A stretch of 64,000 nt of DNA from Syntrophus sp. (in: bacteria) (lineage in GTDB: Bacteria; Desulfobacterota; Syntrophorhabdia; Syntrophorhabdales; Syntrophorhabdaceae): assembly GCA_013824645.1 (NCBI GenBank), contig PNOF01000002.1, positions 1 to 64,000 of the forward strand, in the 5' to 3' direction. This document shows positions 53,929 to 64,000 of the stretch, piece by piece; position 1 is the stretch's first letter; every line of letters starts with the position of its first letter. Position numbers and translations under genes: made by a program. The notes beneath the pieces are model-generated. The model worked only from the letters and a program-made list of their open reading frames with translations, had not been told where the DNA came from and ran no database searches.

Positions 53929-54402
53929 ATGATTATTAAAACACCGACGAAGTTTTTTCTTGTAAAAGGATCGTCGGAAGGATTCTCATTGCTTAATGCT
54001 TTTGATGGGGCGCTTCTGGCTTCAGGCGTGGGAGATACCAACCTGGTAAGAATGAGCAGCATACTTCCTCCTGGTTGTGAAGAACTTAACCCGCCTCCGG
54101 TCCCGATGCCGCAGGGGGCACTCGTGCCCGTTGCCTACGCGTCTCTTTACAGCGATGTCCCCGGAGAGGTCATATCTTCCGCTGTGGCCATAGGCATACC
54201 AAAGGATGCAACCAGGGCCGGCTTGATCATGGAGTATTCGGCAAGAGCAGAAGAAGATGTCGTTGTTGAGCAGGTCAGGAAGATGGTGGAAAAGGGTATG
54301 GAGATGAGAAAACGCGAAATCAAAGAAATTATGGCAATTTCGGCCACATATAAAGTCGTCACTATCGGCGCCGCATTTGCCGGCGTCGTACTCTGGGATT
54401 AG
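53929..54402 (+). CDS. Pyruvoyl-dependent arginine decarboxylase (paralogue 1)
   Basis: [18 protein letters not shown] cleavage-site motif; [14 protein letters not shown]. Confidence 0.9.
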
Positions 54403-54422
54403 GTGGAGAGGAGGATATAAAA

Positions 54423-54968
54423 ATGACCCCAAAAAAGGTATTTTTTACGAAAGGGGTGGGCGTTCATAAAGATAAACTGTCATCCTTTGAGGTCGCCTTA
54501 AGAAATGCGGGCATAGAGAAGTGTAATCTTGTCTATGTATCAAGCATATTACCGCCAAAGTGCAAGATGCTTTCAAAACCTGATGGTCTGAAACTTCTCA
54601 ACGCCGGTCAGATTACCTATTGCGTGATGTCCCGCAATGAGACAAATGAACCGAACCGTCTTATCTCTGCGTCAGTTGGTTTTGCCATGCCGGCCGATTT
54701 TACCAACTATGGTTATATATCCGAACACCATGCTTTTGGTGAAAAAGCCGTTGTCTCCGGTGAATATGCAGAGGACCTCGCGGCTACAATGCTCGCAACG
54801 ACACTCGGCATTCCTTTTGACCCGAACCAGGCATGGGATGAGCGCAAGCAATTTTACCGGGCGAGCGGTCATATATTCAAAACAAAAAATATCTGCCAGT
54901 CCGCTGAGGGAAATAAGGACGGTCTCTGGACCACGGTATTGGCGTCAGCAGTGTTTATTATAGATTGA
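54423..54968 (+). CDS. Pyruvoyl-dependent arginine decarboxylase (paralogue 2)
   Basis: [18 protein letters not shown] cleavage-site motif; [22 protein letters not shown]. Confidence 0.92.
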
Positions 54969-54969
54969 A

Positions 54970-55854
54970 ATGTCAAAGTCGTCTCCTCCCGGTTTCTGCG
55001 GGTTGCCCAACAATAAAACTGATTATACTCAGGCCCTGACAGTCATACTGCCGGTTCCTTTTGACAAAACAAGCACATGGCTTAAAGGCGCAGATAAAGG
55101 CCCGGCAGCGATAATAGAGGCGTCCAGTTATCTCGAATTCTACGATATCGAAACCGATAGCGAGGTTTTTAAGAAGGGAATTTTTACTGCCAAACCCATA
55201 GATGCTGTATCCTCTCCTGCTTTGATAAAAAAAACCGATTCGGCAGTCTCGAAATATCTTCAAGACAATAAGCTTGTAGTAACCCTTGGGGGCGAACACT
55301 CTGTTTCAATTGGTGTTATTAAGTCCTATACGGAGCACTATGAGGATCTCAGTATATTGCATCTTGATGCCCATGCAGACTCTCGCGACTCCTATGAGGG
55401 GAGCCGTTATAATCATGCCTGCGTCATCGCACGTGCCCGGGAATGTACCGGGAACATTGTTTCCGTGGGAATACGCAGTATGGATGCCTCAGAGCGCTCC
55501 GTCGTTGACAGCAAAAGGATGTTTTTCGCGCATATGATACACGATTCTGATAAATGGATAAATAGGGCAGTCAACTTGCTTACCGATAATGTCTATATCA
55601 CCATTGATCTTGATGTCTTCGATCCCGGTATTATGCCGTCAACAGGGACTCCCGAGCCGGGTGGTTTAGGCTGGTATCAGGTTATGAAACTCCTCTCCTC
55701 TGTCTCGCAATCAAAACGAATCGTCGGGTTTGATGTTGTTGAGCTCTGTCCATCAAATGCTAAAGCCCCCGATTTTCTTGCCGCCAAATTAATCTACATG
55801 CTCTTAAGCTATATCGAGGTGAATAAACCACGATATACAAGGGCACCAACTTAG
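54970..55854 (+). CDS. speB: Agmatinase / ureohydrolase
   Basis: VTLGGEHSVSIGVIKSY; LHLDAHADSRDSYEGSRYNHACVIARA; ITIDLDVFDPGIMPSTGTPEPGGLGW. Confidence 0.95.
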   Translation: MSKSSPPGFCGLPNNKTDYTQALTVILPVPFDKTSTWLKGADKGPAAIIEASSYLEFYDIETDSEVFKKGIFTAKPIDAVSSPALIKKTDSAVSKYLQDNKLVVTLGGEHSVSIGVIKSYTEHYEDLSILHLDAHADSRDSYEGSRYNHACVIARARECTGNIVSVGIRSMDASERSVVDSKRMFFAHMIHDSDKWINRAVNLLTDNVYITIDLDVFDPGIMPSTGTPEPGGLGWYQVMKLLSSVSQSKRIVGFDVVELCPSNAKAPDFLAAKLIYMLLSYIEVNKPRYTRAPT

Positions 55855-56123: not shown

Positions 56124-56516
56124 ATGAAGAGATTAATTTTAATTTGGGGCTGTCTTGCTGTTTTGATTTGCCTTACTTCCGGACCGGCTTTTGCAAATAA
56201 ATCAGCAGTGTCTATCGAGATGCCCGGCAGCGTTGAGAAGGATTCCGAAGTGGTTATCAGACTGAAGGTTATTCATAGCGGCAACTCATATTTTCACTAT
56301 ACAAAATGGCTTAAGGTTCAGGTCGATGGGAAGCCTGTTGCACAGTGGGAGTACGTGAACAGCAACCGACCCGAGGAAGCCACATTCACGAAGGAGGTCA
56401 AGATTAAAGTATCTGGAAACACAGAAATCATCGCTGAAGCAAGCTGTAATATCCATGGAAGTTCAGGGCCGGCAAAGGCTACGATCCTGGTGCCCGGTGC
56501 GGGGGCTAATCCATGA
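56124..56516 (+). CDS. Secreted desulfoferrodoxin/superoxide-reductase-like domain protein
   Basis: Signal peptide; HSGNSYFHYTKWLKVQVDGKPV...ASCNIHGSSG resembles the SOR iron-site region. Confidence 0.65.
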   Translation: MKRLILIWGCLAVLICLTSGPAFANKSAVSIEMPGSVEKDSEVVIRLKVIHSGNSYFHYTKWLKVQVDGKPVAQWEYVNSNRPEEATFTKEVKIKVSGNTEIIAEASCNIHGSSGPAKATILVPGAGANP

Positions 56517-57861: not shown

Positions 57862-59619
57862 GTGAGAGATAAATATTGTGGGTTTGTGACAAAAGATGAT
57901 ATTGGAAAGGTATTGACGCTTGCAGGATGGGTCTTTAGGAGGAGAGACCATGGTGGTCTCATTTTCGCCGACCTCCGTGACGTGACGGGTATCGTGCAGG
58001 TCGTTTTTTCCCCGGAGATATCAAAGGAAGCCCATGACAGGGCAGGGGATATAAAGCAGGAATATGTGCTCAGGATTGTCGGAAAGGTTGAGAAGAGACC
58101 TCCCGAAACAGAGAACACCAACTTGCCTACCGGTGCCATTGAGGTTTATGCACAGTCCTTTGAGGTGCTCAATACATGCAAACCCTTGCCGTTTCAGCTT
58201 GATGATGAAGATATTAATGAATCAATCAGGCTTAAATACCGTTATCTCGACATGAGGCGGCCTGAGGTTAAGCAGATTTTTATCGAGAGAAGCAAGGCTT
58301 ATAAAGTAACCAGAGATTATCTTACTTCACATAGCTTTTACGAATTTGAGACACCTTTTTTGACAAAAAACACCCCCGAAGGAGCACGGGATTTTATTGT
58401 CCCCAGCAGATTGAACACAGGTAACTTCTATGCACTCCCCCAATCACCGCAGCTCTACAAGCAGATATTGATGATGGGAGGTTTTGAACGGTATTTCCAG
58501 ATTGCCCGTTGTTTCAGGGATGAAGACTTACGGGCTGACCGTCAGCCCGAGTTTACTCAGATTGATATTGAAATGAGTTTTGTGGGACGCGAAGATGTCA
58601 TGGGGCTCAGTGAAGGCCTGATTATTGCGCTTTATGAGGCATTGAAGGGGAAAAAGCCACCGGAACTGCCATTTCCGAGGATGAGTTTTGCTGATGCCAT
58701 GGAACGTTACGGCACTGACAAACCTGATCTGCGCTTTGAACTTCCCCTCTTTGAAATGACAGACCTTTTTAAAGGGACTGAATTCGGTGTCTTCAAGAAA
58801 ACTATTGAAGACGGCGGTGTTATCAAATCAATGATCCTTAAGGGCAAAACCCTCTCACGGAAAGATCTTGATACTGCAGTCGATACAGCGAAGGAGATGG
58901 GAGCCGGCGGTCTTATCTGGATGCGAAAAGATGCTGAAGGGTTCCAGTCGCCTATTGCAAAGTTTCTCAAAGATGATGAAAAATCAGGGATGGAGAAGAT
59001 GCTTGCGACCCAAACCGGCGATGTTATCTTCATCATGGCTGACAAACGTAGCAAGGTAAATGAAATTATGGGGAGATTGAGGCTATACATCGGTGAGAAA
59101 TATGACCTTATCAATAAAAATAGTGATAAATTTCTCTGGGTTATCGATTTCCCCCTTCTCGAGTATAGTGAGGAAGACAAGAGGTATGTTGCCCGCCACC
59201 ACCCCTTTACCTCGCCGAAAGACAGCATAAAAGATTTCAAAGGTGATTACGAGTCGGTCCTTGCCAATGCCTATGACCTTGTGTTCAATGGTGTGGAAAT
59301 TGGCGGAGGCAGTATCAGAAACCACAGGATGGATGAACAGATGGAGATGTTCAGACTGCTGAACATGAAAGAAGAGGATGCCTTTGAAAAATTCGGCTTT
59401 CTCCTTGAGGCGCTGGAGATGGGGGCGCCGCCGCATGGCGGTCTCGCCTTTGGTTTTGACCGCATTCTCATGATGTTCCTTGGCCTTGACAGCATACGGG
59501 AGGTTATTCCATTTCCAAAAACTCAGAAGGGCACCTGTCCTTTGACGGGTGCTCCATCGAAGATTGGTCAAAAACAGTTAAATGAACTGAAAATAAAGTC
59601 CACTGGTGAGAACCGATAG
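57862..59619 (+). CDS. aspS: Aspartyl-tRNA synthetase
   Basis: GWVFRRRDHGGLIFADLRDVTGIVQVVF; ARCFRDEDLRADRQPEFTQIDIEMSF; GGLAFGFDRILMMFLG. Confidence 0.97.
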   Translation: MRDKYCGFVTKDDIGKVLTLAGWVFRRRDHGGLIFADLRDVTGIVQVVFSPEISKEAHDRAGDIKQEYVLRIVGKVEKRPPETENTNLPTGAIEVYAQSFEVLNTCKPLPFQLDDEDINESIRLKYRYLDMRRPEVKQIFIERSKAYKVTRDYLTSHSFYEFETPFLTKNTPEGARDFIVPSRLNTGNFYALPQSPQLYKQILMMGGFERYFQIARCFRDEDLRADRQPEFTQIDIEMSFVGREDVMGLSEGLIIALYEALKGKKPPELPFPRMSFADAMERYGTDKPDLRFELPLFEMTDLFKGTEFGVFKKTIEDGGVIKSMILKGKTLSRKDLDTAVDTAKEMGAGGLIWMRKDAEGFQSPIAKFLKDDEKSGMEKMLATQTGDVIFIMADKRSKVNEIMGRLRLYIGEKYDLINKNSDKFLWVIDFPLLEYSEEDKRYVARHHPFTSPKDSIKDFKGDYESVLANAYDLVFNGVEIGGGSIRNHRMDEQMEMFRLLNMKEEDAFEKFGFLLEALEMGAPPHGGLAFGFDRILMMFLGLDSIREVIPFPKTQKGTCPLTGAPSKIGQKQLNELKIKSTGENR

Positions 59620-59638: not shown

Positions 59639-61459
59639 TTGAAAAAGAAAAAGAAGGGCAAAGGTTTTATCTTTAAGAATGCTACAGAGAATGTAAAATA
59701 TCCACTCATCGATGTTGATAATCCGGAGTTTTACCGTGATGTTTTCCCTTATAATGAAGTCTGCAAGGTAAAGTTTGATCATAAAATAGAGCTTATTGAT
59801 CCTCCTGATGAAATCTATATTACCGATACGACGTTCAGGGATGGACAGCAGTCACGGCCGCCTTTTTCAGTAGCACAGATTGAAGCTCTTTTTGATCTTA
59901 TGCACCGGCTCGGCGGGCCAAATGGAGTAATCAAACAATCGGAGTTCTTCCTTTACACTGACAAAGATAGGGAAGCTGTTGAAAAGTGTCGTGAAAAGGG
60001 ATACCGTTATCCAGAAATAACGGGTTGGATCAGAGCGAATAAGAACGATTTACAGCTCGTAAAAGATATGGGCTTAAAAGAAACAGGCATCCTTACGAGC
60101 GCTTCCGATTATCACATTTTCATGAAACTGAACAAATCAAGATCGCAGGCATTTAAAGATTATCTGAAAATTGTTGAGAGCACACTGGAACACGGAATAA
60201 TACCGAGGTGCCATTTTGAAGACATTACAAGGGCAGATATCTATGGGTTCTGTGTGCCCTTTGCCCAGGCGCTCATGAGCCTCTCTGAAGAAGCCAAAAT
60301 CCCGGTGAAGATACGGCTCTGTGATACGCTTGGTCTCGGTATTACCTACCCGGGAGCGGCAATACCAAGGTCTATCGGAAAGATTATCCGCGCTATGGTT
60401 GATGACGCAGGCGTTCCCTCGGAATACCTCGAATGGCATGGACACAATGATTTTCATAAAGTCATTATTAATAGTGTCAGTGCCTGGCTCTATGGATGCA
60501 CTTTTGTGAACGGTACGCTTCTTGGCATTGGAGAGCGAACGGGTAATGCGGCCATCGAAGCCCTTATTATGGAATATGTTTCCCTTATTGGTGATGATAA
60601 TGGAGTAGATACAACAGTTATTACTGAGGTTAGAAATTATTTTGAAAAAGAGCTTGGTTATCATGTTCCGAAAAACCAACCCTTTATCGGACTTGATTTT
60701 AATGCCACATCAGCCGGTGTCCATATTGATGGTATTATCAAGAATGAGGAAATCTATTCTCCCTTTGATACCAATAAGATTCTCAAAAGACCAATAGCAA
60801 TCAATATTACCGATAAATCAGGACTTGCCGGTATTGCTCATTGGATCAATTCACATTTTGCACTTGTAGATAAAGATCGGATTGAAAAGACCCACCCCGG
60901 TATTGCCAGGATTAATAAGTGGATTGCCAGACAGTATGATGAAGGCAGGGTGACCTGTATATCGGAAGAGGAAATTGAACATCAAGCCAGACTCCATATA
61001 TCAGAGATTTTTGTGTCGGAATTTGCGCTCATTAAAAAGAGGGCTTATGATATGGCTGCTCACCTCATCGAACGTTATATTGAAGATCCTGCTATCAAGA
61101 CGATGGATCCGGAAAAACAGGAAAAAATACTTAAGAATATTGTGGAAGATTTCCCCTTTATCCAGTTTGGCTATATAGTCAATGGTGAAGGCATCAAAAC
61201 TACCAAAAATGTTACACAGGCAGTGGACAGGGCAAAATATCATAAGATCGGGATGCACGAGGATTTTTCAGACAGGGATTGGTTCCTTAATCCTATGAAG
61301 AACGGGAAAATCAGTGTTACCGATATATATTCATCAAGGATTACCGGCGCTCTTTGTGTGACGGTTTCCGGTCCTATTAGAGACGATCTTGGAGAAATTA
61401 TGGGTGTGCTCGGTTTTGACATACGTTTTGAAGACCTTACAAAGGCTGAGGTAGAGTAA
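59639..61459 (+). CDS. HMGL-like synthase (Re-citrate/homocitrate synthase-related) with C-terminal Cache-like domain
   Basis: ITDTTFRDGQQSRPPFSVAQIEALF; LCDTLGLG; EWHGHNDFHKV..NGTLLGIGERTGNA; C-terminal DFSDRDWFLNPMKNGKISVTDIYSSRITGALCVTVSGPIRDDLGEIMGVLGFDIRFEDL. TTG start with GGAGG RBS; ORF can extend to GTG 59606. Confidence 0.8.
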   Translation: MKKKKKGKGFIFKNATENVKYPLIDVDNPEFYRDVFPYNEVCKVKFDHKIELIDPPDEIYITDTTFRDGQQSRPPFSVAQIEALFDLMHRLGGPNGVIKQSEFFLYTDKDREAVEKCREKGYRYPEITGWIRANKNDLQLVKDMGLKETGILTSASDYHIFMKLNKSRSQAFKDYLKIVESTLEHGIIPRCHFEDITRADIYGFCVPFAQALMSLSEEAKIPVKIRLCDTLGLGITYPGAAIPRSIGKIIRAMVDDAGVPSEYLEWHGHNDFHKVIINSVSAWLYGCTFVNGTLLGIGERTGNAAIEALIMEYVSLIGDDNGVDTTVITEVRNYFEKELGYHVPKNQPFIGLDFNATSAGVHIDGIIKNEEIYSPFDTNKILKRPIAINITDKSGLAGIAHWINSHFALVDKDRIEKTHPGIARINKWIARQYDEGRVTCISEEEIEHQARLHISEIFVSEFALIKKRAYDMAAHLIERYIEDPAIKTMDPEKQEKILKNIVEDFPFIQFGYIVNGEGIKTTKNVTQAVDRAKYHKIGMHEDFSDRDWFLNPMKNGKISVTDIYSSRITGALCVTVSGPIRDDLGEIMGVLGFDIRFEDLTKAEVE

Positions 61460-61462
61460 TAG

Positions 61463-62722
61463 ATGGGCAAGACATTAGCCGAAAAGATATTGAGCATGAA
61501 TACACAATTGGATATACGGCAAGGGGAGTATGCTGTTGTGAACATAGACAGAATACTTTTACAGGATGGTACGGCCCCTCTTGCAATTAAGAGATTTAAA
61601 GAGATGGAATTTAAAAAGCTTTTTGACGGTTCACGGGTTACTTTTTATATCGATCATGCGTCGCCAAGTCCCAGACAGGAGCTTTCCAATGACCATCTTG
61701 CCATCAAAGACTTTGCCAGACTATATGGCGCCAACGTAAGCGGTGTAGGGGACGGTATCTGTCACCAGATCATGTCTGAGCAGAGCCTGCTGCCGGGGGA
61801 AGTGCTCCTCGGGGCCGATTCGCATACCTGTACCGGGGGCGCGCTTTGCGCATTTTCAACGGGAATGGGGTCAACCGATATCGCAACTGCAATGGGGTTG
61901 GGAAAAACCTGGATGAGGGTCCCGGAAAGTTTCAAGTTTATTTTAAAGGGTAAGTTTCTTCCCGGTGTTTATCCAAAAGACCTGATTCTGAAAATCATCA
62001 ATATCGTTGGCGCAGATGGGGCAACGTACAAATCGATGGAGTTTGTTGGGGAAACAGTGGAAAACATGGCTGTCGAAGATAGGATGACTATCTCTAATAT
62101 GGCTGTTGAAGCTGGGGCAAAGTGTGGCCTTTTCCCTTCCGATGCCGTGACCAAGGAGTATCTTAAAGATCATGGCAGAAAAAGTGCCTATGGTGAAATT
62201 CAGCCTGATGATAATGCGCTCTATGAGAAAACCTTTGAGATTAATGTCGATGAGTTGACCCCCATGGTGAGTATGCCTCATACGGTGGATAATGTGCATA
62301 GTGTGACTAACGATGAGGTAAAAAACACTTCCATCCAGCAGGCCTTTATCGGGTCATGCACAAATGGAAGGATAGAGGATTTGAGAATTGCATCCCGAAT
62401 ACTGAAAGGGAAAAAGAAACACCCGGACGTGAGGCTCATTGTTTCGCCGGCTTCACGGGCAGTATATGGCCGGGCAATGGAAGAGGGAATTCTTACGGCG
62501 CTCTTTGAAGCTGGCGCCGTTATCATACCACCGGGATGCGGCCCTTGTATTGGCATTCATCTCGGGGTGCTGGGTGACGGCGAAACCTGTGTGGCTACAT
62601 CAAACAGAAATTTTCTTGGAAGGATGGGGAATCCCAACTCGCAGATCATTCTTGCTTCACCGGCAACGGCGGCGGCAAGCGCTCTTACGGGAAAATTGAC
62701 AGACCCGAGGGAGGTGTTTTAA
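61463..62722 (+). CDS. Aconitase/3-isopropylmalate dehydratase family, large subunit
   Basis: [68 protein letters not shown]. Confidence 0.95.
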
Positions 62723-63219
62723 TGATCCTGGAAGGATCGGCCTGGAAGTTTGGAGACGATATCTCCACAGACCACATTATACCGGGCAGATTTTATCATC
62801 TGAGATCGAACCTGGAAGAACTGAAAAAACATATTTTCGATGATATTGCCCCTTATTTTCATGAAAAGGTCGTCAAAGGAGATATTATTGTCGGCGGCAG
62901 AAACTTCGGTTTAGGCAGCAGTAGAGAACATGCGCCGCTCATTATCAAAATGGCCGGTATCGATGCAATTGTAGCGAATTCTTTTGCGAGAATATTCTAC
63001 CGTAATGCAATCAATGTTGGTCTTGCGGCAATTATCTGCCCCGTAGATGACATAGAAGAGGGGGACTATCTGGAAATCAAACTTGACGAAGGAATCCTCG
63101 TGAATAAAAGCAAAGGAGGAGAAAAGACCTTTCCTCCTCTACCTGGTATTATGCGGGATATATTAAATGAAGGCGGCCTGGATCATTACATAAGGAAACA
63201 CGGTGCATTGAAAATTTGA
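62722..63219 (+). CDS. Aconitase/3-isopropylmalate dehydratase family, small subunit
   Basis: [58 protein letters not shown]. Confidence 0.95.
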
Positions 63220-64000
63220 CAGAGATTATTAAAATACCCTGTATAGCAGGTGATGGCATTGGTGATGATATCTGGAGTGCCTCCCGGGAGATCTTTGAAG
63301 AAGCCCTTATAAAGGGAACAGCGGGGCAGAAAAAGATAAAATGGATACCCCTTTTAGCAGGTCTCAAGGCCCTTGAAAAAGAAGATAAACTCTTGCCCGA
63401 TAAAACTCTGGAGACGGTGAAAGAGTATAAAATAGCCATTAAAGGACCGTTGACAACACCGGTCGGAGGAGGGTTCAGGAGCGTCAATGTCCATCTCAGG
63501 CAGATATTTGATCTCTATACCTGTGTCCGTCCTGTCCGTTATTTCAAGGGTTTGCCAAGTCCCCTGAAAACCCCTGAAAAGGTCGATGTCATCATTCTCA
63601 GGGAAAATACTGAAGATATTTACAAAGGGATCGAGTGGAAAGAGGGGACAGAAGAGTCGAAAATGATACTCGACTTTCTGAAGAATAAAATGAATGTGAG
63701 CCTCTCCTCTGATACAGGCATTGGAATAAAGCCTATCAGTAAAACCGGTACGGTCCGTTTTACAAAGTGGGCCATCGATTATGCCATTAAGAATAAGAGA
63801 AGGTCTATCACTGTTGTCCATAAAGGCAATATCATGAAGTATACCGAGGGAGCCTTTCGGGAATGGGCCTATGAAGTGGCAAAAGAATACCCCAAAGCGA
63901 TTAGTTTCGAAGAGTCGGATGAAAAAATCCTCTTCAATGACAGGATCGCCGACAACATGTTTATGCAGATGATCTTGAGACCCGATGAGTATGATATACT
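63216..64000 (+). CDS. icd: Isocitrate dehydrogenase (partial, runs off window; TTG start; absent from ORF track)
   Basis: IAGDGIGDDIWSA; RPVRYFKGLPSPLKTPEKVDVIILRENTEDIYKGIEW; GIKPISKTGTVRFTKWAIDYAI; VVHKGNIMKYTEGAFREWAYE. Confidence 0.9.
   Translation, partial: MTEIIKIPCIAGDGIGDDIWSASREIFEEALIKGTAGQKKIKWIPLLAGLKALEKEDKLLPDKTLETVKEYKIAIKGPLTTPVGGGFRSVNVHLRQIFDLYTCVRPVRYFKGLPSPLKTPEKVDVIILRENTEDIYKGIEWKEGTEESKMILDFLKNKMNVSLSSDTGIGIKPISKTGTVRFTKWAIDYAIKNKRRSITVVHKGNIMKYTEGAFREWAYEVAKEYPKAISFEESDEKILFNDRIADNMFMQMILRPDEYDI

Follow-up and report, generated by a model that had tools for sequence, protein, structure and literature searches.

A gene at positions 59639..61459 (+ strand) of the window, the whole 64,000-nucleotide stretch of DNA analysed here, encodes an HMGL-type condensing enzyme that carries a Cache domain at its C-terminus. 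Homology and gene context favour the assignment of this enzyme as a Re-citrate synthase, its catalysis itself being predicted, and we consider it probable (roughly two chances in three) that the Cache domain is an allosteric module on the synthase that reads a small intracellular carboxylate. This reading builds on what was observed of the architecture, the fold, the orthology, the operon, selection and the conservation of the pocket. Since the gene has a studied orthologue and its architecture is common, it does not represent a new kind of system. What varies here is the regulatory position of an HMGL condensing enzyme, which is occupied by a Cache domain.

The gene is a single unbroken open reading frame with a product of 606 aa. 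TTG at 59639 is the likely start codon, with ggagg just before it; an alternative in-frame GTG at 59606 overlaps aspS (aspartyl-tRNA synthetase), which lies directly upstream (57862..59619, +; Pfam, synteny). The next genes of the operon encode an aconitase/homoaconitase-family large subunit (61463..62722, +) and a LeuD-like aconitase-family small subunit (62722..63219, +), both assigned by Pfam and NCBIfam. They are followed by an NADP-dependent isocitrate dehydrogenase (NADP-IDH; 63216..64000, +, extending past the window to position 64355 of the contig; L119:8217-9356), assigned via PF00180 and NF005425 (above cut-off). Together these genes would lead from citrate to 2-oxoglutarate. Synteny of loci showed that the gene order of synthase, aconitase large and small subunits and dehydrogenase is kept in Syntrophorhabdales, and that aspS adjoins the Re-citrate synthase gene in most Desulfobacterota loci. 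Elsewhere in the window we observed two tandem genes for pyruvoyl-dependent arginine decarboxylases (PvlArgDC; 53929-54968, with products of 157 aa and 181 aa) and, after them, an arginase-family gene that probably encodes agmatinase (54970-55854). The gene at 56124-56516 encodes a small protein that seems to have a signal peptide and matches a desulfoferrodoxin domain weakly.

Pfam placed an HMGL-like domain at residues 59-333 (E 1.2e-30), and an HMGL match was present in 60/60 relatives searched; the N-terminal HMGL-type condensing enzyme proposed in an earlier note on this DNA was thus borne out. The motifs TDTTFRDGQQ, EWHGHNDF and GERTGN lie in the HMGL-like TIM barrel, which is followed by a post-barrel region. 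Using Pfam, the family alignment A1 and the extent of the short relatives described below, we delimited the catalytic part as residues 1-460 (59639..61018, +).

The identity of the enzyme was derived from the reading frame, Pfam, alignment A1 and comparison with the S. aciditrophicus protein. Over 602 aa, Cache included, the window protein is 57% identical to an orthologue of 629 residues, which we take to be the S. aciditrophicus SB enzyme; its mass with a Strep-tag, computed as 72.8-73.0 kDa, fits the 72.9 kDa reported for the published subunit. Kim et al. (2013) reportedly showed the S. aciditrophicus enzyme to be a Re-citrate synthase. Like the window gene, the S. aciditrophicus gene combines HMGL and Cache domains and adjoins aspS. 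Unlike the window gene, it is not followed by an aconitase-IDH operon, and its product has ~27 more C-terminal residues. Our literature search, which did not extend to the original enzyme paper, found no statement naming the S. aciditrophicus C-terminus as a Cache domain. The RDGQQ and HGHND motifs in the HMGL-like domain and the orthology to a characterised Re-citrate synthase place the window protein in this family, of which the S. aciditrophicus enzyme (SYN_02536) is a known member (PMC12016533).

The earlier note had read the protein as a citrate or homocitrate synthase, and the first of these two is the better supported. Orthology to the S. aciditrophicus enzyme, the aconitase/NADP-IDH operon and the lack of any match to Si-citrate synthase (PF00285) in the window genome (G000, 88% complete) favour a Re-citrate synthase; as a control, PF00285 was found in 13/14 genomes. 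We consider it highly improbable that the enzyme is instead a homocitrate synthase supplying a homoaconitase route. The weak NCBIfam matches do include nifV and homocitrate synthase models, and homoaconitase-type models match the aconitase subunits, but those synthase matches are all far under cut-off and the dehydrogenase downstream is an NADP-IDH above one cut-off. The identity of 57% shared with the S. aciditrophicus Re-citrate synthase also speaks against this alternative, which moreover would leave a genome that is 88% complete without any citrate synthase found.

In the C-terminal part, Pfam detected MCP-like_PDC_1 (PF22673) at residues 530-602 (E 8.5e-15, above the curated cut-off) and dCache_1 at 541-601 (E 1.2e-8, under cut-off), with YkuI_C as a further weak match of the 606-aa protein. 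LeuA_dimer (PF08502) had no match in the window protein, and a LeuA_dimer or other communication domain was rejected on Pfam. The 2-isopropylmalate synthase (LeuA) and citramalate synthase (CimA) encoded in the same genome are HMGL condensing enzymes with 26-29% identity to the window enzyme in the barrel region; they carry the allosteric LeuA_dimer domain, a different family from Cache, after the post-barrel region, where the Cache domain sits here. To cover the family, we built an alignment (A2) of residues 440-606 and 47 diverse homologues that were 28-71% identical to the window module; MCP-like_PDC_1 and dCache_1 matched 48/48 members.

The AlphaFold model of residues 440-606 (mean pLDDT 86) opens with a helix of ~20 residues, and the module combines the profile match with this long N-terminal helix and an antiparallel sheet, as expected of Cache/PDC domains. 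The top Foldseek match in the PDB was the KinD sensor (E 5e-10, probability 1.0), with Tlp3, TlpQ, DctB, YkuI and PctA within the next 50 matches; a sequence-profile search of the PDB also recovered Tlp3, KinD, PctA and YkuI. Taken together, the Pfam profile matches, the AlphaFold and Foldseek results and the profile search confirm a Cache fold for residues 440-606. The Pfam and structure comparisons that the earlier note had called for returned the domain it had placed in the LeuA-domain position. The span it gave (61050-61440) was close; because the short relatives end near residue 461 (61019), we let the module begin there and assign residues 461-606 (61019..61456, +) to a long helix and a single Cache/PDC domain, based on Pfam, AlphaFold and Foldseek. 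KinD (4jgo; pyruvate complex 4jgp) resembles the module even in a short motif (SYSSRITG versus IYSSRITG). However, KinD is an extracytoplasmic double Cache on a membrane histidine kinase and has Ala where the enzyme has D594.

No transmembrane segment was predicted in the 606-aa protein, the highest 19-residue Kyte-Doolittle mean being 1.15, in agreement with the earlier reading that neither a signal peptide nor a membrane segment is present. The placement between membrane helices that is typical of extracytoplasmic Cache domains was not found, and a membrane-anchored enzyme was rejected because no hydrophobic stretch had the length that a membrane helix needs. We also rejected an assembly error or gene run-on, since the same fusion occurs in independent assemblies, including single-contig chromosomes.

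The fusion is widespread among anaerobic bacteria. Same-order relatives were nearly all full-length fusions (73-85% identity), and in a phylum-wide draw the fusion was found in 196/395 genomes, with nearly all matches listed extending to residue 602-606. By these sequence matches, the long form with Cache prevails among Desulfobacterota genomes that have the enzyme, which does away with the view of the protein as a lone oddity. The fusion also occurs in at least eight other phyla. Long forms were seen in Syntrophorhabdaceae, Syntrophales, Desulfovibrionaceae, Desulfarculaceae, Nitrospirota, Spirochaetota, Lentisphaerota, Omnitrophota, Elusimicrobiota, Fibrobacterota, Margulisiibacteriota and Auribacterota, among others; many of the long-form genomes in this cross-phylum listing are MAGs.

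Short forms ending at about residue 461 were found in Brocadiaceae and other Planctomycetota, in a Firestonebacteria genome, and in one genome each of Bacillota and Desulfobacterota. The Clostridium kluyveri enzyme also counts among the short Re-citrate synthases. The Kuenenia and Brocadia proteins are 56-63% identical to the window protein up to residue 461 and end near there without a Cache domain, unlike the window enzyme; the Kuenenia gene has been proposed as a Re-citrate synthase (PMC8027424). The existence of forms without Cache in anammox planctomycetes and a Bacillota suggests that catalysis probably does not need the domain. A FastTree tree contained at least four changes between long and short forms, only one of them forced by well-supported branches; its sample was chosen by similarity to the long form, and the direction of gain or loss cannot be read from it. 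A genome of a Syntrophales-like order (G529) that has the long Re-citrate synthase also encodes a second, divergent HMGL enzyme (L144, 1559-2731, - strand; 35% identity, open frame of 457 aa, lacking Cache), which could be a member of a different group of citrate or homocitrate synthases.

A predicted ligand pocket (R546, W548, F549, Y564, S566, T569 and D594; 61274..61420, +) emerged from conservation in A2 and from the equivalent residues of PctA, KinD and MCPs, and it varies little between phyla. W548, F549, S566, L572 and D594 are invariant in 48/48 members, and T575 (47/48), T569 (46/48) and R546 (43/48) are nearly so, at a mean column identity of 46%. In a nucleotide comparison, dN/dS of the Cache domain was ~0.04-0.06. 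The domain changes more quickly than the catalytic part (dN ~1.2 to 4 times as high), which weighs against the allosteric reading. R546, W548, Y564 and D594 align with R126, W128, Y144 and D173 of PctA, in which R126 bonds the carboxyl group of the ligands (PMC10104139). R546 also aligns with R131 of KinD, the position that carries the mutation in 4jgq. The full dCache_1AA motif (PctA Y121, R126, W128, Y144, D146, D173) is not present: the position of Y121 is variable and that of D146 is the invariant S566, and a complete amino-acid-sensor motif was rejected on these grounds. Such a pattern would be expected of a carboxylate-binding site that is being maintained, and it does not name a ligand; with R546 and D594 kept and PctA D146 replaced by Ser, the pocket is a hybrid from which the ligand cannot be read by known motifs.

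This conservation bears on a structural role, in which the long helix and the fold would be responsible for stability or for assembly into dimers or tetramers, and no ligand would exert control. Cache domains commonly dimerise, a helix of ~20 residues opens the module, and the S. aciditrophicus enzyme was reportedly a homotetramer (Kim et al. 2013), all of which would suit such a role. Against it, the strongest constraint falls on positions that form the ligand pocket of homologues and not only on helix or surface residues, and the pocket signature is also kept in chemoreceptors, whose output domain is unrelated. We therefore regard a purely structural domain as rather unlikely.

Outside the enzyme, the closest relatives that we found for the module are the C-terminal Cache domains of MCPsignal proteins (E ~1e-34 to 1e-26). 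Such proteins were found at L023 (6955-8577) and L145-L150 in Desulfobacterota, mostly without an evident membrane segment; by eye, L149 has an N-terminal hydrophobic region. Their Cache domains carry R, W, F, Y, S and D at the equivalent pocket positions, although the output is MCPsignal and not an enzyme. From these sequences, the Cache lineage of the module appears to have been largely cytosolic already. YkuI_C and Diacid_rec are two principally intracellular Cache families (PMC4822843), and given these and the mostly soluble chemoreceptors, finding the domain inside the cell is in itself no surprise. This qualifies the earlier note, which had described Cache domains as normally extracytoplasmic. 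The C-terminal domain of YkuI, like that of the window enzyme, is a cytosolic Cache on a soluble protein; unlike it, the YkuI domain is joined to an EAL domain and is distant in sequence.

This kinship could mean that the Cache domain localises the enzyme or mediates protein contacts, for example with chemoreceptors bearing the same Cache, instead of controlling catalysis. We consider this very unlikely, as such a chemoreceptor was seen in only part of the enzyme-bearing genomes (matches at E <= 1e-8). A tentative and rather doubtful extension of ligand control is that the Re-citrate synthase branch and the soluble chemoreceptors read the same ligand, so that one cytosolic signal would set both carbon entry into the TCA pathway and motility.

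We favour allosteric control by the Cache domain, which the earlier note had also envisaged and which is plausible from the sequence. The cytosolic Re-citrate synthase would condense acetyl-CoA and oxaloacetate to citrate, opening the pathway from citrate to 2-oxoglutarate encoded by the operon. A small intracellular carboxylate would bind the C-terminal Cache domain, candidates being 2-oxoglutarate, glutamate, aspartate, pyruvate, acetate, oxaloacetate and malate, and the ligand-bound domain would alter how active the synthase is or how it assembles. Leucine acts on LeuA via LeuA_dimer, which serves as a model for the coupling. We infer the binding and class of the ligand, the allosteric coupling and the sign of its effect; a full-length AlphaFold model built with 20 sequences was weak (pTM 0.42), and contacts between the domains are not readable from it.

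Our literature search, with the primary enzyme papers outside it, found no description of a Cache domain or a sensing role on a citrate synthase, nor did the search find a description of how Re-type citrate synthase is controlled. Citrate synthase is the step that commits acetyl-CoA to the route towards 2-oxoglutarate and glutamate in syntrophs and sulfate reducers, and the near-invariant pocket in a conserved sensor domain offers a concrete, testable handle on the control of the Re-type enzyme. A sensor usually regarded as extracellular occurs intracellularly here across many phyla. If the proposed control is true, Cache joins the regulatory domains already known at the C-terminus of HMGL condensing enzymes.
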